Shown: piece by piece, positions 1,863 through 45,247 of the stretch
Position numbering within the stretch: position 1 is the stretch's first letter
Layout of the letters: every line of letters begins with the position of its first letter
From: Tetrahymena thermophila SB210
Lineage: Eukaryota; Ciliophora; Oligohymenophorea; Hymenostomatida; Tetrahymenidae
NCBI RefSeq assembly: GCF_000189635.1
Contig: NW_002476463.1
Coordinates: forward strand, 186,001 to 250,000
Direction: 5' to 3'
DNA length: 64,000 nt
Program-made: the position numbers and the translations under genes
Notes under the pieces: model-generated
Databases searched by the model: none
Told to the model about the DNA's origin: nothing
Seen by the model: only the letters and a program-made list of their open reading frames with translations

Positions 1863-4800
1863 ATGAATCAAATATTATTTTCCACATTAATTTGTAAGCT
1901 TTTAATTCTATTTCTTCTCAATTATTTTTTTAAATAAATAATATTTTATTAATAAGGTTTTTCTTTTTCAGTCTTTGTTCAGGCGTGCAGCTAGTTTTTA
2001 AATAAGGCGGATGCAACTTTAATTATTCCATTGGGATAAACTTGCTTGTTAGAAGATACTTCTATTGAAAATATAACCTTGAACACAATTATAATTGAAG
2101 GAACTCTTTCTATCAAAGACAGTTTATCTATGAACATTAAGTATAAAGATCTTATATTAGGTCAAAAAGGTTCTTTAGAAATAGGAAAAGATGCGGCTAT
2201 CATTAATAATTTAATTATTTTTGAAGATGTTAGCACTTAGGAATGTTAAGAACCAGCTAATACTCAAAGTATTGGGAAAATTAACATTCAATCTAGATTT
2301 ATGTAGACATACAATTTGTTTGATATTTACAAGGCTTAAACATAAATCTAATTTTAGGGTAAGCCTGTCGATATTCTTGCTAAATAAAATTATGTATTAG
2401 TTAATAGTTTCTCCTAAACAGAATAACTGTTAAATATCTAAGATGTATTAGAGGAGACTTTGATTCTTAGAGAACCTATTTAAGAAGATAACTTGAATGT
2501 AGAAATACAAAGAGAACTAGTGATTAGACCTATTCTCTTCAGTGATTTACCTGTGATATCAGGAGTAATATTTAAAAAGTAAGCTTTTTATTTTTAATTT
2601 AATTAGCTTTTTAGATCTGAGTTTGATATTTTTCATTGATTAATTTAAATAATTTTATTTGAGATAAAAATACTAAATTTTATTATTATATTTTTAATTA
2701 TAGCTCTTGCTTGATTGGAAGTGTTGAGAAGTTTTAAGGAGTAACTTTGCTGAATCCTAGAGGTCTTTTTTTAAAGGGTGGTTAAATATAAAGTTCTTTG
2801 ATAAAAATAGAAAATCAAGATAAATCAATTACTAGAACTATTAAAACAGAAGGCGGATTTCAAAGGAATATCTTTTATAAGTGTTAACAGCTGAATGTGC
2901 AAATAGACAGCACAGATCAAAATTCTTTTGTGGATAATAACATTGTAAGCTCAAAGGATCTTTAAATCAGTGTGAAAAGCAGACAATTTAACAAGAATTC
3001 TTTCATAAATAGTAAAATTGTGATTAATGCTTAAGATGTAAACTACTTAACCCTTTCTAACTTTAGATCTTTTAATACAGAGATTTAATTCTTAAATTAA
3101 GAAAATTCTTACCTTTAAATCAAAGATAAAAGTATTGTTTATAGAAATAAAGTTTTTTAAGTTTCTAAATCTTTAGACAAATTTTATCAAGACGATACAA
3201 TATTTTTTGCTACAACCCTCGATCTGAGTAAATCGATTGTAAATACTAAATTTTCTATTTCAAATTCATTCTTTGACGGAAATAATGAAGTTGATCATTT
3301 AGCTATATTTAGTAGTAATTCAAAATAATAAGACATTAACCTTGAGTATACTCTTGCGGTGAAATTTAATAGCTTTTTATTAACTACTTCTGATAAATTA
3401 AAGTAGCCTTAAATTAAATATTTTGCTAGAATTTCCTCAGAAACTCTATTTAATGTTTATATTAAATTTTTCAAAATAAATAATAAGATTATTGACTACT
3501 TGCCTTTATTTAACTTACCTATGATGAATTTAGTTACTTACTCGAGCAGAGAGGAATATAATATAGTAGAAATTGATGATTTAAACACTGAAACTCAAAA
3601 CATCATGTACTCAAAAATTAAATGGGCTCCCGTTCAAGTTTACTAAACAAATTCACTTCCAACTTACTATCAAATAAAAAACATTGTTACAACTGATAAT
3701 AATAGCAACATTTTAGCTAAAATTTCATTTGATGGTAAAGCAAAGTAAGACTTAAACTTGAATTAATATTCTTAGCTGCTTGGTGATTAAATTAAATATA
3801 TAGAGTTTATTGATAATACTGGAAAAAAATTAGATCTTTAAGAGTTCACTATTCAGCTTAATGTTTAAAGTACAACTCAAACAGTCAGATATAAAACTGG
3901 TCTAATTTTCCCCTCTACTCTAAAAGCTATAAAAAAAGTAACAGTATTTTAAGTAAATGACTCAAAAGAAGAGTAAGTTAAAGTAGTAAATAAAATAGAC
4001 GATACTTATCAATACAGTTATAGTACAATTTTCTTTTGGAGCTAGAGTCTAAATCAGTTTTCTTTAGTTTGGAAAAGGTTGACTTAAGGATTTACTACTT
4101 ACAAAATTAAGTTTGAATATTGTGAGGAAAATGAATTATTTGATGGAGCTTCTTGTGTCACTTAATGTAATACTTCAAAAATGGAGTTTTTCTGTTCTAA
4201 AGATTGTGGGGAAGGATACTATAAAGATATCAACAATCCAAATATTTGCTTAAAATGCCCATTCGGATGTAAACAATGCAAAGATAATACTGTATGCTTG
4301 AAATGCTATGATTTTTATTTCAGTGATGGCTAAAAATGTAGAGATAACTGTGGTATTAATTAGGTTGCATACAAAAATTCTTGTTAAAAATGCGGAAATA
4401 ACTGTGGTTTTTGTTACTCAAGCGAAGAATGCAATGTGTGTTAAGGATTATACACAGTTTATAATGCTCAGTGCAAAATGTGTAAAGAAAATTAAGACGA
4501 ATACTGTGATGAATGTCCTAAAAATTGCAAATCTTGTGTTGATAATAATACTAATTTTAAATGCTTTGAATGTGATGAAGGCTACGAACTCATTTTTGGT
4601 TAGTGCAAGAAAAAAAATACTTAATTAACTTAGTAAAGTTGTGAAATTGGATATAGTTTTATAAATGGGTCTTGTTAATAGTGTTCTTAAGGTTGCTTAA
4701 CATGCTCTGAACCTAACAATTCAAATAGATGTTATACCTGTACCACATCTTATTCATAAGATTATTTTGGTTCGTCTTGCAAAAAATGCAAAGGAGGGGA

Positions 4801-6305
4801 ATATTCACCCTCACGTGATTCATGCCAATCTTGTAGCTAACTATGTGACAACAAGTTTTCTTGTTTTGGTCCTTCGGTATTTTAGTGTTAAAAATGTCAA
4901 GCAGGTTACTTCAAGCATTTACAAAATAACAAATGTCTAAGTTGCGATTTGAGTAAATGCAAAGAGTGCTCTGAATCACCTACACAATGCACTGACTGCC
5001 CAGAAGGTTAGTTCCTCTATGATAAATAGTGTTTTAGTAAATGTCCAAGTGGTTGGTATCCTGATGAGAAAAGAGTTTGCAGATAATGCAATCAAGAACT
5101 TTGTAAAGAGTGCTATAATTCCCCAACTTAATGCACAGAATGCAAATAGGGTTAAGTTCTGTTTGAAGAGAAGTGCTACAAAGACTGTAAACCAGGATTT
5201 TTTGCTGACAAATAAAATGTATGTAAGCCTTGCGATCTGAATAAATGTGAAGAGTGTATTTAATATGATACTAAGTGTACAAAATGCAAAGGAGATCTAT
5301 ATCTTATTAACCATAGCTGTGAAGAAGAGTGTCCTGATAAAGGATACTATTTTGATCAAAATAACAAATGCCTACCTTGCCATGAGGATTGTGAAAAATG
5401 TTCTGGCTCTTCAACAAACTGCACTGACTGCGAATATCCAATGTTTTTGGAAGGTAACAAATGTCTTTAAGAATGCCCTCCTGGAAAATATGGAGCTTAT
5501 GTTTAGAGCATCAGTAAGTGCTTAGATTGTGATACAAAGAAATGTTAAAATTGCATTGACAATAAATCTAAATGTACTTCATGCAATGAAGGATATTTCT
5601 TATATAAAAATTAATGTATGAGCGATTGCCCTAAAGGAACAAACAAAAATTTAGTAACTTAAAGCTGTCTAGTTTGTCTTTAGCCTAATTGTGCTGTATG
5701 TGGAGATAATATCGGACTTTGTGTTTAATGCTAAGAAGGTTTTATATAATATTAAGGAGTTTGCACTAAAGAATGCCCAGTTGGTTATTTCTTAAATAAA
5801 AACGAAAACAAGTGCTAGGAATGTGATAAGAGAGTATGTATGGAGTGTTCTGAATCACCTACTAACTGCACTAAATGTTATCCAGAGCATTTCAATATTG
5901 GAAACGGAGTCTGTTCTACTACTTGCCCTAAAATGGCTTATCCTTTATAATTAGCAGATCAATCAGTATGTAAGCCATGCAATCCTACATGCACAAAAGG
6001 ATGTGTCGGACCATTAGATTCTGAGTGCTTGGAAGGTAAAATTTTATTATTATTATATATAAATTTTAATTAAAAAATATAAAACAGCTGTTTACATAAC
6101 TTAAGAATCGAATAACTAAGCAATTTTAATTGGCTTACTTGTTGTATGCTTTGTCTTATTGATAGGTTTAGTTATTGTAGGGTATTTATACTATAAAAGG
6201 AAACAAGCTCTTCCTTATAAATCTTACTTACTAAAAAGAGAAAGTCAATCTGATATAGGAACTGTAATATAAATGGAGAAAACTGAAAGTTTAAAAAGAG
6301 TTTGA
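1863..6305 (+). CDS. Large cysteine-rich type I membrane surface protein (furin/EGF-receptor-like Cys repeats)
   Basis: Three exons (1863-2578, 2704-6035, 6088-6305) give 1421 residues with TAA/TAG as Gln and a TGA stop; both introns start GTAA and end TAG or CAG and keep phase. The start has a long hydrophobic leader (residues 1 to about 45) that can serve as signal peptide. Residues about 60-710 form a Cys-poor N-terminal region. From about 715 to 1345 the chain is a series of CxxC modules of the growth-factor-receptor/furin-like type (repeated C-x2-C, C-x4-6-C, GY/GF spacing). A single membrane span lies near 1362-1385, followed by a basic tail of about 36 residues. This is a common ciliate surface protein architecture; ligand and role are unknown. 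A partial copy of its 3' end lies just downstream. The exact start is the least certain part. Confidence 0.85.
2579..2703 (+). other. Intron 1 of the large Cys-rich gene (125 nt)
   Basis: Starts GTAAGC and ends TTATAG. It interrupts the second base of a codon and, when removed, joins two long frames. Confidence 0.8.
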
Positions 6306-15840: not shown

Positions 15841-18156
15841 TCATTAAATCAAATCTAGATAAGATTGCTAAAAAGAATTCAGCAATATCTTGCTAAATAG
15901 TTTATTAAACGCAATGAAATTAAAAAGTTAATGATTCGACTTTTAAATCCAATACTTCCAGTTTTCTTCAGATGCTATATCTACTGATATCGATCTTGGA
16001 TCATTTATATTTAAATATAAATATCCTATTTCAATATTATCAATTTGATTGTTCTCTAAAAGCAAGTCTACTTCTTTGATATTTTCACATTTTGAAATCT
16101 GCATAATAAGTTTAGATCCTCCTAGATTCGTAATTTTATTATCAGTGAAATTTAAATAAATTTTATCTAAATGAGTGCATAAATTTAGGTAGTTTGTAAA
16201 ATTTATAACACCTTCATCACTGATCTTATTTTTAGATAATGCAATAACTAAACTATTTATCATTTAGCATTTTGAAATATAAAAAGAAAATAATTCAATT
16301 CCTTTATTTCCTATATCATTATTAGTAAAATCTAATGAAACTGATTCCAGTTGCTCGCAATTTGAGATAGAGCTAATTATTTAGCTATAACCACTATCTG
16401 TAATTTAGTTATAACTCATTCCTATTTATATTTTACTTAGTTACTTCATATTCTTTATTCCGTTTGCTAATGAGCTACAGATTTTGTCACCACATTTATT
16501 AAAAGATAGCCCTAAAGATAACTCTTTAATATTTTAAAGAGTTTTTAAACCAATTCCTAAGCCCTCCATAGACTAGTCTTCTATTTAATTATTTTCTAAT
16601 GATATTGCTAATTATTAAAGATCTAAGAAATTAGAAAGACATTCTCCTAACATTTATAAACCTATTCCATTAATCATGTTTTTTTGGAAGAAAATACTTA
16701 GATTTTATAAATATTCACAATCTTGAATGTTAATTATAAATGATTCTAAGTTATCTATCTAATTTTATTCCATATTGATTGTAAGACTTACAAGCTAAGT
16801 GCAATTATTAAATTTCAAATCAGACAGGGATTACGAAGTTATTCTATTATTAGAAAAATTAATATAAATTGTTTAAAGCTTATTTCTTGTGGAAATTCCT
16901 AATCCGAAACCAGAAATCCCATTATCCTCTATTTAATTAGACTAAAAGTTTAGCTTTAAGCTTTAAATTGAAGTACAATTAGATAACCCAATACCAATTT
17001 ACTTGCATCCTTCGTTGCAAATATTGTTGCCTTATAAATCTAAGTCCAGATGCTTTAAACTAGCTAAATTTGATAAACTCTTTCCAATTTCAATAGCTGA
17101 ATTATCCCCAATTTTATTAGAAATTAATCCTAATTGACAAAATTAAATGTTTTTGGATTGAACTAGAAACTAGATAGTAGAGATAGCTCCTTCATCTCCT
17201 ATTTCATTATAACTTAAATCAACTATACAAGATATGATGTTACTTCTGTTTGATATTCCTACTCCAATTTGAACAGCTCCTTACTCTCTAATAGAGTTTT
17301 AACTTAAATTAAGTAATAATTTTTATATTTTTGAAGAGGTGCTTTCTAATCCTTTACCAAAACTAAAGGCTCCATTATTTCCTATTTAATTATTTTCTAA
17401 ATTTACTTCCAAAAGCAGAAGTTATTGAAGAGTTTAAATTCCTTCTCCTAATCCCTCTACACCTATATCTCCTATACTGTTATTGCTTAATGCAAGATTT
17501 AAGATCATTAAATTATTTAATTTAGATAAGCAAGCACCTAGTTGTAATCCTCCTTCTTCACCAATAGTATTTTGGTTAAAATCCAATTGTAATTTTATAA
17601 GCTTCTCACACTACTATATCTCTTAGCAAAAACCTATCGCGCCAATTTAACCAATATTATTTTTGCAAAAATTCAATTAAAGTTAAGAAATATTTTAACA
17701 ATATGATATTCCCTTAGCTATACCAATTATACCAAGATCTTTTATCTTGCATTTTTCAAAACCTAGCTATAAAGACTTAAGTTTATTAAAGTAAGTAAGA
17801 GCTATCCCTAAACCCTCACAAGAGCTATCAGTTATATTAGAAAAGCTGAAATCGAGTTTGAGCTCAAACAAAGTTTTGCAATTTTATGTTCTTTCTTCAT
17901 TTTCTTTGCTCTTTTACATCATAAAATTTTAAAACAATGTAAAATTAGATTAGCAGCTAATCTCATCACTTTTTGGCTGTTTTATTTTTTAGAAAAACTT
18001 TTCCAAGTAATAAAGCTACTCACAAATGCTTATAATCTTATTAGCTACATTTGATGAGCCTTCAGCCATATCTTTTAGAATATTTGAAAACTCTTTAATT
18101 CTCTCATCTGCCTAAGTTCTCAAAATTTCTTCTTATGATTAATTTTATCTACTCAT
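15841..18156 (-). CDS. Leucine-rich-repeat protein (ribonuclease-inhibitor-like repeats), 771 aa
   Basis: One uninterrupted frame of 772 codons with TGA as stop. An N-terminal helical, Q-rich region (1 to about 90) is followed by roughly 20 LRRs of alternating type from about residue 95 to 710, with the motif L-x-L-x-x-N-x-I-G/x-D/N-x-G (for example N-x-I-G-D-I-G and N-x-I-G-D-E-G). The last ~60 residues lack repeats. Such proteins usually serve as protein-binding scaffolds; no catalytic domain is present. It is divergent from MCM3, with 820 nt between the starts, so the two may share an upstream region. Unlike the LRR gene at 36947, all repeats lie in a single exon. Confidence 0.85.
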
Positions 18157-18976: not shown

Positions 18977-21935
<2,959 letters not shown>

Positions 21936-35841: not shown

Positions 35842-36946
35842 TACTTAATGCTTTTAAATTATTACTAATTAATATATTAAATTGATAGATACTAAATAAT
35901 TACAAAATTAATTAATTAATAAATAAATAATTAGATTTGCAAACAATTTTTATCTATTCGTTCCCTCTTTATAATTATTAATATATTGTTTAAAAACTAT
36001 ATTTTCCATTCAATCAAATGCATGCACACAATTTTAAAAATAGCGCTCAAATTTAGAATATTAAATAAAAAATTTAATATTTTAGTGTTAATAACTAAAG
36101 GCTTTTAAAATTTAATATAATTATCTGTAAAACTATTTATTTGTATTACTAATTAATAATAAAAAAATGATTTTTAAAATAAGGAAAATATGTGTTGCAA
36201 TTCATGTTAAAAAATTAATCTCAGGTCCAGTCCAGGGTTAATCCCACCTCCAATTTCCTATTTACATTCTGAAAATGAATAAATTCATTAAATGTATTGA
36301 CTATTAAATTTTTTATGTTAGCTAATAAATATCCTAATTTATGATTGATATTTAGTTTATTTTAAAAAAATTATCTTAATTAACAAAAAAACAAAAATGC
36401 ATAATCTATTTATTAAAAGTGTATTTAATTATATTTATAAATGAGCTTATTTGGTTCAGACAACCTAAATTATATGTATTTCAAAAAAAACTAATAGGAT
36501 TTGAGAATAGTTAAAATTATAAGAAAGATTATAATATTTTAAACATATTTTAATACATATAAATATCTCCCTCATTACAGAACTAAAACAAACAAATCTA
36601 CTTAATAAAAATTATTTATTAAACATAAATATTGTAATTAATAGAATATTTTCAATATATGACTTCCATCTCAAAATCATACTATATTTTTAAGTTTATA
36701 TTTTCAATAGAAATATTAAGATTTAACAATGATTGTTAGTTACACAAACTTTTTTGTGATATTTTTTATAAAATCAAATTTATAAATTCATATTTGAAAA
36801 TTATTTTAATTTATTGATTCTTTTTATACAAATTAATTTGAAATAAAACTAAATTAAATATTTTATATACCTATTATTAATTAATTCAATTTCCAAAAAT
36901 TACTATTAAATTGTCTTTGAAGAAAAAAAATGACATAATAGAAAAC
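35842..36946. other. AT-rich spacer with one GC-richer patch
   Basis: No gene is called. A 30-nt GC-richer segment at about 36220-36250 (GGTCCAGTCCAGGG then TTAATCCCACC) stands out from the surrounding A/T. It does not fold into a tRNA and its role is unclear. Confidence 0.5.
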
Positions 36947-39900
36947 ATGTTTTAAAAATATACAAGAAGTAGTTATTTATTTTTTTATGGATATTCTTTA
37001 AATTTATTTTTATTAATAAAAAAGTTTTAAAATTCTTCATTTTAATCTCATTAGATTCTTGATCTTGTTCTGAGGTATATTTAATTTATTAATGTATTAT
37101 TATTAATAATTTTTATATTTTCAAGTTATTATTAATAATATTTTTCTAAAAGAAATTCTTATATTTACTCATTCATTTCATTCATCCAAATATTTTTTAT
37201 TTTTTTAACTTAATTTTAACTTTCTATTTTTATTTTGTAAAATAATTATTTATTTTTTATTATTTCGTATTTTTTATTCATTTTTTCCTTCTAACTTACT
37301 AAATATCATATTCTTTCTTCAATATTTAAAAAGATTCAAATTAATGAGTGATAAAGAGGCATCAGGCTTAGGTTCTGATTTAGCAAAATGCACTAATCTC
37401 TCAAGTTTGACACTTGATCTTTTGTAAAAATAGTTATTTAATTTTGTATTGTAATATTTTTTAAAGTAAAAATCAATTTTAAAAAATATATATTACTCAT
37501 TTTGTTTTTTTTCTTTCATTTTTTGTAAATTTTTTCATTTTCTAATTTTTACTTTATTATAATATCATTTAATATTATTTCATATTTTCCTTCATTTTTT
37601 CCTTCTAATTAACTAATTAATTATTTTTTCTTCAATATTTAAAAGTTACAATTATATTGGCGATGAAGGTTCATCAGGTTTGAGTTATGGTTTGGCAAAG
37701 TGCATTAATCTCTCAAATTTGTCACTTTGTCTTACGTAAAAATCTTTCTTTCTTTGCTAATTTAACTCATCTTTTAATTTTCAACTTTTGTTTTATAATT
37801 AATTTATTTATTTCTTAATATTTCATATTTCTTATTCATTTATTCCATCAAACTAACTAATTAATTATCTATTTTATCTTCAATATTTAAAAAGTGAAAA
37901 TTAAATTGGTGCAATCGGTGCATCAAGCTTAGGTTCTGCTTTAGCATAGTGCGTTAATCTCTAAAACTTGATAATTGATCTTAAGTAAAAACAGTTTATT
38001 TGTTTAAATTGTAATATTTTTAAAGTAAAAATGAATTTAAAAAAATTGTAACAATTTTAATTCATTTATAACTTTTGATTTTATTATTAATCAATCTATT
38101 TTTTAATTTTTAATTTTTTCCTTCATATTAACTAATTAAATTTATATTTTTTCTTTAATATTTTAAAAGTTTAAATAAAATTGGCGATGAAGGTTCATCA
38201 AGCTTAAGTTTTGGTTTAGCATAGAACACAAGTCTCTCAAATTTGACACTAAAGCTTAAGTAATTTTGGATTTTGATATTTTTTTTATAAAAATGAATTT
38301 AAAACGGTATAACTAACTCTTTTTATTTTTGCATTTTCCCTTTTTAATAATGAATTAATTATATTTTTTTCTTCAATATTTAAAAAGTAAAAATTAAATT
38401 GGTGATAAAGGTGTATCAGAATTAGGTTTTAATTTAGGAAAGTGCACTAATCTCTCAAATATTACACTTTATCTTAAGTAAAAATAATTTATTTGTTTTC
38501 GATTGTGATATTTTTTAATATAAACTGATTAATTATATTTTTCTTCTATTCAAAAATAGTTCCAATAAAATTGGCAAAATTGGTGTATAAGGCTTAGGTT
38601 TTGGCTTATCAAAGTGCATTAATCTCTCAAATTTAACACTTGATCTTATGTAAATACAATTTATTTATTTTGGATCGTGATATTTTTTAATATAAAAATG
38701 AATTTAAAGCAATATAATTAATTCTTTTAATTTATTTATTAGCTTTTATTTGATATTATTTATTTTTCTTTTTCTTTTTTACTTTTTGCTTTTTGTTTCT
38801 TTGTTGATATAAATAATTTTTTATTTATTTTCAACACTTGCCTTAAATTTATCAAATTATTTCTTATTCTTTTTAATATTCTTCCTTCATTTTTCCTTCT
38901 AACTAACTAACTAACTAATTAATTAATTATTTTTTCTTCAATATTTAAAAAGTAAAAATTAAATTCCTGATGAAGGTGCATTAGGATTAGGTTTAGCTTT
39001 AGCAAAGTGCACTAATCTTTCAATTTTGACACTTTTTCTTAAGTAAAAACAGTTTATTTGTTTTGAATTGTAATATTTTTTAATATAAAACTGAATTCAT
39101 ACTCATTTAATTTATATATTTGATTTTTTTTTTTTTACTCTTTATTTTGCTTGAGTTTTTCTTTTCTGTTAATTTAACTCATTTTTTCATTTTCAATTTT
39201 TAATTTTATTATTAATTAATTGTTTCATATTTTTTCTTCATTTTTTCCTTCTAACTCATCAATTATTTTTTTTCAATATTTAAAAAGTTCGAATGAAATT
39301 GGTGGTGAAGGTGCATCAGGCTTAAGTTTTAATTTAGCAAAGTGTACTAATCTCTCTAGTTTGAAACTTAATATTAGGTAGCAGTTTATTTATTTTGGAT
39401 TGTGAAATTTTTTAATATAAAAATGTATTTAAAACAATATTAATATTTTAATTTATTTATTATATTTTATTTATTTTTTCTTTTTTTTATAGTTTGCTTG
39501 CTTTTTTTTCTTCTATTTTAGTTAATTTAACTCATTTTTTCATTTTCAATTTTTAATTTTATTATTAATCAATTGTTTCATATTTTTTCTTCATTTTTTC
39601 CTTCTAACTCATTAATTATTTTTTATTCAATATTTAAAAAGTGAAAATTAAATTGGTGATGAAGGTACATCAAATTTAGGTTTAGATTTAGCAAAGTGCA
39701 CTAAACTCTCAAATTTGACACTTTATCTGAGGTAAAAATAGTTTATTTATTTTGGATTCATATATTTTTATTTATAAAAATGAATTTAAAACAAAAATAC
39801 TTTATTAATTTATTGAAAAGTTTTTTATTGGAATTATTTTTTTTCTTTTTTATTGTTCTTGCAATTCTTTTTCTTTGTTTATTAATTTAGCTCATGTTTT

Positions 39901-40782
39901 CATTTTCACTTTTGCTTTTATAATTAATTAATTAATTTAATTCTTATTATTTCATATTTTTCTTCATTTTTTCATTCTAATACACTAATTAATTATTTTT
40001 CTTTAATATTAAAAAAGTGAAAATAGAATTGGTGCAACTGGTGCATTATGCTTAGGTTACGGTTTATCAAATAGCACTAATCTCTCAAATTTGACACTTA
40101 AATTAAAGTAAAAGCATTCTATTTGTTTTAGATTGTCAAATTTTTAATGAAAAAATAAATTTAAAACAATAAAATCTTTTAATTTATTTATTAACTTTTT
40201 ATTTTAATTAATTTTAATTTCTTCTTTATTTTGCTTGTGTTTTTTTTCTTCTTTAGCTCGTTGTTCATTTTTAAATTTTGCTTTTATAATAATTAATTAA
40301 TTTATTTTTATTGTTTCATATTTTTCTTCATTTTTTCCTTCCAACAAACTAATTAATAATATATTTTATTTTCAATATTTAAAAGTTACAATGAAATAGG
40401 CAATCAAGGTACATCAGGTTTATGCTCTGGATTAGCAAAGTGCACTAATCTCTTAAATTTGACACTTTCTATGAGGTAAAAATAGTTTATGTTCTTATAT
40501 TGTTCAATATAAAATTGAATTTCAAAGAATATAACTTTTTTAATTAGCTTTTTATTTGAATTATTATCTTTTTATAGTTTATTCAATTAAGATTTTTATT
40601 TATTAATTTAAAATATATATTTTAATTTAAAACTTTTATTGTATTTAATTTATTTTAATAACTTACACTAATTAATTTATATTAAAAGTAAATATTAAAT
40701 CAATAAATCATAACAATTAAGAGTAAAAAGCATATGCCTTAAATCATTAAGATTAGTTGACTTCATAATACTTTTCTTATGA
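36947..40782 (+). CDS. LRR protein with one 30-residue repeat per 90-nt exon
   Basis: Thirteen exons: 36947-37074, 37334-37423, 37646-37735, 37895-37984, 38170-38259, 38388-38477, 38560-38649, 38953-39042, 39288-39377, 39642-39731, 40018-40107, 40386-40475 and 40689-40782, encoding 403 residues. Exons 2-12 are each exactly 90 nt, all begin with the third base of a codon and end after two bases of the next. Each contributes the repeat N-x-I-G-D-E-G-x-S-x-L-x-x-x-L-A-K-C-T-N-L-S-x-L-T-L. The last exon is in phase, ends in TGA and supplies the C-terminal cap. Exon 1 is inferred: its end (L-D-L-V-L) aligns with the repeat and its phase fits, but an ATG at 37344 inside exon 2 is an alternative start. 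No TGA interrupts any repeat. The function is probably binding or scaffold. Confidence 0.85.
37075..40688 (+). repeat. Tandem exon-intron array (11 LRR exons with related introns)
   Basis: The repeating unit comprises the 90-nt exon and its intron, at spacings of about 170-395 nt. Most acceptor regions share a TTCAATATTTAAAAAG-type sequence preceded by TTTTTTCCTTCTAACT and T-rich tracts. Donors are mostly GTAAAA followed by ATAGTTTATTT-like sequence. This shows that introns were copied with exons, so the array grew by duplication of whole units. Confidence 0.85.
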
Positions 40783-44137: not shown

Positions 44138-45247
44138 TCATTAATCTTTTTTTTCTTGTTCTTCTGTTTTTGCTGATTCTTAGGCTTGATTTTCAGATTT
44201 ATTTTCGGTTGATGTTGCTGTAGTTTCGCTTGTATTTTATTTTTTATCTTCTTAAGTTTCCTTAACTTCTTATTTTGGAGAGCTGTTTTCACGTTAATTT
44301 GTTTTATCAGGTGTTTTACTTTCGTATTTTACCAACCAGGAAAATAATCTTTCAACCTAAGCATATAATTTTCCTACAAATTTAGGAACTCCTGGCTTAG
44401 AAATACGGGCCTTGATTGAGTTGTTTACTTTTTAGAAGGCAAGTTGTGTGTTTGTGTTTATGAGGTACTTTATTTTCAAGAAATTGTAGTAGAAAATAAC
44501 TAAAAAGATGCTGCTTAGTCCGAAAAAGATTTCAACAAAAAGTATTAACAAATATACGATTTCGTATTAACTTTTCAAAAGCATAATTCTATCTTTGTTT
44601 TAACGTGTTTAAGTAATAAATTTCTCTGCTTTGTAGTATAATTTATTCTTTGAAATATTTAAATACTCACATATTCCAATCCAATAGTGCAGTGCTAAAG
44701 GGAAGTAAAAAAACACATTACGTGAGTCACTATGAAATGCGAAGACTAGCATGTAAACCAAATTTTGAGAAAACTAGTTTTAAGCTAACTGCTAAACATA
44801 TTATTTGGTATAGCGAGGGCGTTTTAATTAACGAATTATTGCTAAAATACAAATAATTATAGAAGCATATTGAGCTACAACTCTAGTATTAAAGAATGTC
44901 AACATGAATATTACTTTCAGATAGTTCTCAACTGAATAAGCTACTTTCTTTAAAGTAGATTTGAACTTACTTTCTTCCTTATGATGATGATGGCCTTCAC
45001 ATTTTTTGCCATTGTGAGTATGTCCTTCTTCTTTTTCTTCTAAATCATCTAAATCAGGTAGAGTACCATCATAATTTGGTTCGAATTGTTGATTGATGAA
45101 TCTTTTATACCAATGTCTCTTTATCATCTCCATAGCTTATTCAGGAACAGGAGGCTACAATTCTTTGAGGAACTTTTAAAAATCCTTATTATTAGCAAAA
45201 TCATAGCTCTTGAAATCATCTATTAGCTTTTATTTGGTATCCGTCAT
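44138..45247 (-). CDS. TMEM33/Pom33-family membrane protein
   Basis: A single exon of 369 residues. The TMEM33/Pom33 core spans about 105-300: a helix opening V-E-N-Y-L-K-V, a long hydrophobic segment, a basic stretch, then two further hydrophobic hairpins, and the family's C-terminal amphipathic block (N-S-I-K-A-R-I-S-K-P-G-V-P-K-F-V then L-Y-A-Q-V-E-R-L-F-S-W). Characterised members shape tubular ER and associate with nuclear pores. Added here are an N-terminal cytosolic extension with a His-rich loop at about 75-89 (G-H-T-H...H-H-H-H) between acidic stretches, and a C-terminal tail of about 60 residues rich in K/E/Q/S/T. Start: the first ATG of the frame, before a helical segment. Confidence 0.8.

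Follow-up and report, generated by a model that had tools for sequence, protein, structure and literature searches.

Eleven leucine-rich repeat exons of exactly 90 nt in a Tetrahymena gene whose first exon is doubtful

How does a gene come to carry eleven consecutive exons of exactly the same length, each with a leucine-rich repeat (LRR), and is such a gene in working order? Both questions are raised by a locus in the window analysed here, a stretch of 64,000 nucleotides within a 1.87-Mb contig of a 101-Mb, 445-contig assembly. The contig begins with CCCCAA repeats, the telomere repeat type of Tetrahymena. Together with ciliate code 6 and the gene family described below, this points to a Tetrahymena macronuclear chromosome. 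The locus very probably belongs to the Tetrahymena family of LRR genes with 90-bp exons, where the young group III resembles it most, and lies on a somatic (macronuclear) chromosome.

The array comprises eleven stretches of exactly 90 nt at 37334-40475 on the plus strand, each with the layout AG|90 nt|GT:

37334-37423 (+): LRR exon 2, 90 nt
37646-37735 (+): LRR exon 3, 90 nt
37895-37984 (+): LRR exon 4, 90 nt
38170-38259 (+): LRR exon 5, 90 nt
38388-38477 (+): LRR exon 6, 90 nt
38560-38649 (+): LRR exon 7, 90 nt, preceded by the shortest intron (82 nt)
38953-39042 (+): LRR exon 8, 90 nt
39288-39377 (+): LRR exon 9, 90 nt
39642-39731 (+): LRR exon 10, 90 nt
40018-40107 (+): LRR exon 11, 90 nt
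40386-40475 (+): LRR exon 12, 90 nt

With one base skipped, all eleven exons are open under ciliate code 6, which corresponds to phase-2 introns; read from the first base none is open, and with two bases skipped only two are (those starting at 38388 and 38560). The preliminary description had proposed eleven consecutive 90-nt exons in one common phase, and this layout bears it out. The ten introns between the 90-nt exons span 82-303 nt, six of them starting with GTAAAAA and five finishing with ATATTTAAAAAG. Mean identity among the eleven exons is 74%, and their consensus over 29 whole codons is ENQIGDEGASGLGFGLAKCTNLSNLTLDL. When the exons are joined, TGA occurs 0 times in the coding frame and 18 and 12 times in the other two. 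That no copy contains a TGA had been noticed before and is correct, but its weight as evidence is small: drift from the consensus with intron-like composition left no TGA in 14% of 5000 neutral simulations. TAA and TAG codons in the array gene fit glutamine.

Leucine is the commonest residue at columns 12, 16, 22, 25, 27 and 29, where it is kept in 62 of the 66 window cells. Each exon was also said to encode a single repeat. This holds for length, one repeat length per exon, but not for the fold. The LRR motif stretch LxxLxLxxN contains the exon boundary, so each folded repeat draws on two exons. In the Tetrahymena 90-bp-exon LRR genes, junction codons are likewise reported to be common to adjoining exons (PMC6564038). 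Joined from the ATG at 36947, the reading gives 403 amino acids with TGA only at its end, and 14 of its 16 glutamines are written TAA or TAG. A Pfam search of the spliced reading found LRR_6 (E=2.7e-18) over six stretches, with five further models below their cut-offs, the best being PITH (5.8e-4). Fifteen distinct chains of solved structures match by sequence at E<=0.001. The top one is annotated 'Leucine-rich repeat protein' (9y6s_8O, 2.7e-13), and the others include dynein regulatory complex subunit 5 and Ran GTPase-activating protein. The predicted protein, if made, is mainly an LRR solenoid, and such a solenoid would probably bind other molecules.

Related arrays are widespread in the genome. 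A search with a 451-nt piece of the array returned at least 241 matches at E<=0.001, its own included, from the best 40 of 1809 candidates scored. Searches with exon 1 and with the last exon each returned at least 40 matches, own included, among the best 40 candidates. For comparison between arrays we used a sample made up of the window and 20 other loci (L017-L036), which were the best other matches to exon 1 and not a random draw. This sample contains 232 units, 227 of them with a splice pair, and 213 of these 227 are exactly 90 nt long (202 of 216 without the window's own eleven). The figure of 213 is somewhat favoured, as the exon picker preferred 90 nt and open frames where several AG/GT pairs lay within 6 nt. 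Among the 14 other spliceable units, 13 are off by multiples of three (one each of 75, 78, 96 and 99 nt, four of 84 and five of 87), and the remaining one has 89 nt and contains a TGA. Five units lack a splice pair: three reach Ns or the end of a stretch, one is without a GT donor and one gives way to other sequence. All 213 exact units are open in phase 2, a count that the picker's preference for openness also favours, with 40 and 57 open in the other two frames. Arrays in the sample hold 1 to 17 units, some being cut by stretch ends.

Two of the sampled loci have local peculiarities. In L029 (+) a single array carries units of 75, 84, 78 and 99 nt beside eleven of 90, and all keep the frame. 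In L034 (-), at 282-371 in reverse-complement coordinates, an LRR unit breaks into a run of ATAC repeats followed by GC-richer sequence; the break lies ~2.8 kb from the contig end and may be a breakpoint or a misjoin.

The repeated unit is larger than the exon. A 175-nt repeat family that includes ~70 nt of upstream intron has 11 copies in the window, and randomly paired introns of the sample mismatch at 0.17-0.18, compared with 0.27 for shuffled introns. The introns are thus homologous between units and the repeated unit is exon plus intron, as had been suggested from the shared intron flanks. Whether neighbours are most alike had been put forward as a point to check with a tree; by pairwise identity they are not: adjacent exons share 72.4% identity and non-adjacent exons 73.9% (permutation p=0.93), so that among the eleven exons this neighbour-identity test gives no sign of recent local duplication within the window array. 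For ten of the eleven window exons the best match lies in another sampled array, where 202 of the 212 possible partners lie; best matches in other arrays are also what PMC6564038 reports for shuffled exons. With all sampled arrays taken together, 32% of exons are matched best by an exon of the same array, compared with 4% expected at random. From sequence comparison, this pattern points to both within-array duplication and between-array exchange, in agreement with PMC6564038. Either unequal crossing over or exon shuffling, acting on exon-plus-intron units in the germline, probably made the array grow. The gain or loss of a unit would lengthen or shorten the LRR solenoid by one repeat with the frame kept, because each unit is 90 nt long and has the same phase at both ends.

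The ends of the gene are less regular than the array, and the start of exon 1 is the weak point of the gene model:

36930-37074 (+): exon 1 if begun at the family start; 145 nt, which through the family donor join the array out of frame; from alignment with 22 other genomic copies
36947-37074 (+): exon 1 as first proposed, 128 nt, with a phase-2 end, in frame with the array; its ATG is present in 0 of 22 aligned copies
37075-37333 (+): intron 1, 259 nt; near exon 2, AG occurs only before 37334
40689-40782 (+): likely last exon, 94 nt, ending in TGA; its array-like acceptor was chosen among ten possible acceptors

The last-exon region also recurs in other arrays. The start codon first proposed, the ATG at 36947, is private to the window copy and does not agree with the family, whose start aligns at 36930. 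From there to the family donor, exon 1 is 145 nt long and contains an in-frame TGA, whereas 146 nt is the length in nine of the 11 sound copies. The 22 other copies are what remained of 25 matches after two weak ones (E>1e-20) and one at a stretch edge were dropped, and the start and donor columns were taken from one MAFFT alignment. Eleven of the 22 first exons are intact from the family start, ten are not, and one is cut by its own stretch end and was counted as not intact. The lengths of the sampled first exons cluster at 145 and 146 nt; ten of the 22 copies in the 20 loci, compared with 36930-37074 in the window, are out of frame, some of them also without a donor or a start codon. At one locus (L021) the first exon, on the minus strand, is intact, and no 90-nt unit was found downstream of it on the same strand.

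Expression of the window copy is uncertain, since its array does not follow in frame from the family start. Three accounts are possible: the gene works from an atypical start or donor, the sequence contains an assembly error, or the copy was recently disabled.

It is quite possible, although we do not favour it, that the window copy is a decaying gene: a recent pseudogene with a broken 5' end and repeat exons that are still clean, which would be compatible with its membership of the family. Besides the misplaced frame and the private ATG, the other faulty first exons in the sample fit this reading. Unit lesions were found in 3 of 66 units behind a faulty exon 1, one of them running into Ns, and in 0 of 107 behind a sound one (Fisher p=0.054). 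Over 29 columns the commonest residue is kept least often in the window (213 of 319 cells), with 2129 of 2900 in sound arrays and 1217 of 1711 in faulty ones (sound versus faulty p=0.09). Against decay, all 11 window units keep their splice sites, length and frame, and at the 11 scaffold columns faulty arrays (599/649), sound arrays (1017/1100) and the window (110/121) retain the commonest residue to the same degree. An in-frame gene is also possible, either from the ATG at 36947 or from the family start with a donor after 37066 (GTTCTG), the latter being unlike the GTAAA donors of the array. In addition, the change in exon 1 may be an assembly error in a single-base run.

Near-neutral substitution in the array exons also speaks for decay, and the measures of selection vary with the method. 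A crude pairwise count of dN/dS gives 1.13 for the eleven window exons, compared with 1.28 (sd 0.21) in a neutral simulation, and 1.09 for 116 near pairs across the sample. Codon models fitted to the 213 exons give 0.86 (MGK) and 0.57 (GY) over all columns, and 1.13 (MGK) and 1.03 (GY) for the 7 variable ones; the values for the 11 conserved columns came out at the default 1.000/1.000 and were discarded. Based on codons with a single difference, the ratio is 0.71 overall, 1.06 for middle columns, 0.78 for variable ones and 0.35 for the 11 conserved columns, the last figure being biased down since these columns were picked from the same data. These measures between paralogous exons disagree, ranging from neutral-like to mildly constrained, and we read them as weak constraint that is strongest on the scaffold. 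We make no claim of positive selection.

Divergence was also compared between exons and introns. In random pairs the exons mismatch at 0.239-0.249, above the value given earlier for introns, but gapped alignment lowers the intron figure: in simulation a true mismatch of 0.20 was returned as 0.17, and one of 0.25 as 0.20-0.21. The simulated alignments had 2.2-3.3 gaps per 100 and the observed ones 4.5, so the intron mismatch is a lower bound. Among similar exons (127 pairs) the introns come out higher, at 0.144 against 0.130 for the exons. Neither faster change in exons than in introns nor the reverse is established. Ratios of dN/dS in the neutral range, and exon divergence at least about the intron level, fit either weak constraint or decay.

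Nearly all repeat exons behind broken first exons keep their splice sites and frame. We consider it improbable that the arrays with a broken exon 1 act as a silent store of clean 90-nt exons, which would be shuffled into expressed arrays by crossing over or conversion.

Also improbable is exon skipping as a means of regulating or diversifying the array, by which one gene would yield proteins of differing repeat number. Skipping any unit would leave the frame unchanged, which makes it possible by arithmetic only, and human NLRP3, with LRR exons of 171 bp each, is expressed with and without exon 5 (PMC6642158). However, the equal length of the exons is accounted for by unit duplication, and the main text of PMC6564038 contains neither 'exon skipping' nor 'alternative splicing'. 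Among the titles listed for alternative splicing, pseudogenes, exon shuffling or strain variation in these genes, PMC6564038 was the sole one to deal with them.

That AG and GT fell into register by chance in AT-rich sequence, with no real exons, can be ruled out: although the AG-90-GT pattern occurs at 119 of the 2926 AGs on the plus strand of the whole window (array included), 78 of the 119 being open, and a lack of TGA would arise under neutral drift with P ~0.14, the units share the mean identity given above, the same layout recurs at other genomic loci, and each of the eleven fits one profile at E 2.6e-25 or better. Within 37300-40500, 11 of 87 AGs are followed by GT at +90, each of them open in phase 2, compared with ~2 open cases expected among 87 AGs at the window-wide rate. 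A search of the window at E<=1e-3 with this profile, itself built from the same 11 units, found no match beyond them.

We return to the reading of the locus as a family member with a doubtful start and consider its neighbours. The window also encodes a second LRR gene of a different layout and three other open frames:

3521-6253 (+): open frame, 910 aa, with Furin-like_2 cysteine-rich repeats
15841-18156 (-): single-exon LRR gene, 771 aa, LRR_6 E=1.7e-19
20586-21935 (+): open frame whose Pfam matches, MCM P-loop and lid domains, mark it as part of a replicative helicase gene
44138-45247 (-): open frame with a TMEM33/POM33 match

A tRNA search with ARAGORN returned nothing in the window. The gene at 15841-18156 (-) had been contrasted with the array for having its repeats in one exon, and it is indeed one open frame. 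Like the array gene it matches LRR_6, in the same genome, but its repeats lie within a single frame. Its layout alone likens it to group I of PMC6564038, the older LRR genes that lack 90-bp exons.

The exon-array architecture itself is already known, having been published in 2019 for ten Tetrahymena species. Xiong et al. 2019 described tandem LRR exons of exactly 90 bp in these species (PMC6564038), giving their number as nearly 50,000 in the introduction and about 72,000 in the discussion. According to the same paper, more than 96% of 90-bp exons have phase-2 introns, T. thermophila genes carry 1 to 51 such exons each, and RNA-Seq supports the arrays, per a supplementary legend. Exon shuffling by unequal crossing over, perhaps with retrotransposition, was proposed as their origin, and bacterial recognition or response to the environment was suggested as their role (PMC6564038). 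Membership of the family calls for at least three consecutive exons of exactly 90 bp; in the window all 11 are so. The young group III is the subset masked by a nucleotide repeat consensus from RepeatModeler.

As in groups II and III of PMC6564038, the array here has tandem 90-bp exons, phase-2 introns, repeats at the nucleotide level (in the window and across the genome) and a variable number of units. Six conserved leucines per unit are likewise common, by count, to those groups and the window array. Introns in those groups are far above the genome background, with a peak at ~257 bp for group III of T. thermophila (PMC6564038); the median in the present sample is 265 nt (194 introns, with three gaps of more than 600 nt excluded from the intron figures). 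The window copy differs from the genes of that paper in the 82-303 nt range of its ten inner introns and in its family start, from which the array cannot be read in frame through the family donor.

To this description we add three points: the start of the window copy is doubtful, roughly half of the sampled relatives have comparable faults, and neighbouring exons are no more alike than distant ones. The first exon is in doubt in many sampled members, the window copy among them, so transcripts should serve as a check on gene counts and on claims about frame. Human NLR genes such as NLRP3 (PMC6642158) also have LRR exons of uniform length that can be lost with the frame kept, as here. The likeness is one of layout, and NLRP3 differs in its 171-bp exons with two repeats each and in that skipping has been shown there (PMC6642158). 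As an example of exon shuffling in a unicellular organism the Tetrahymena family is striking, and it has already been described in these terms.
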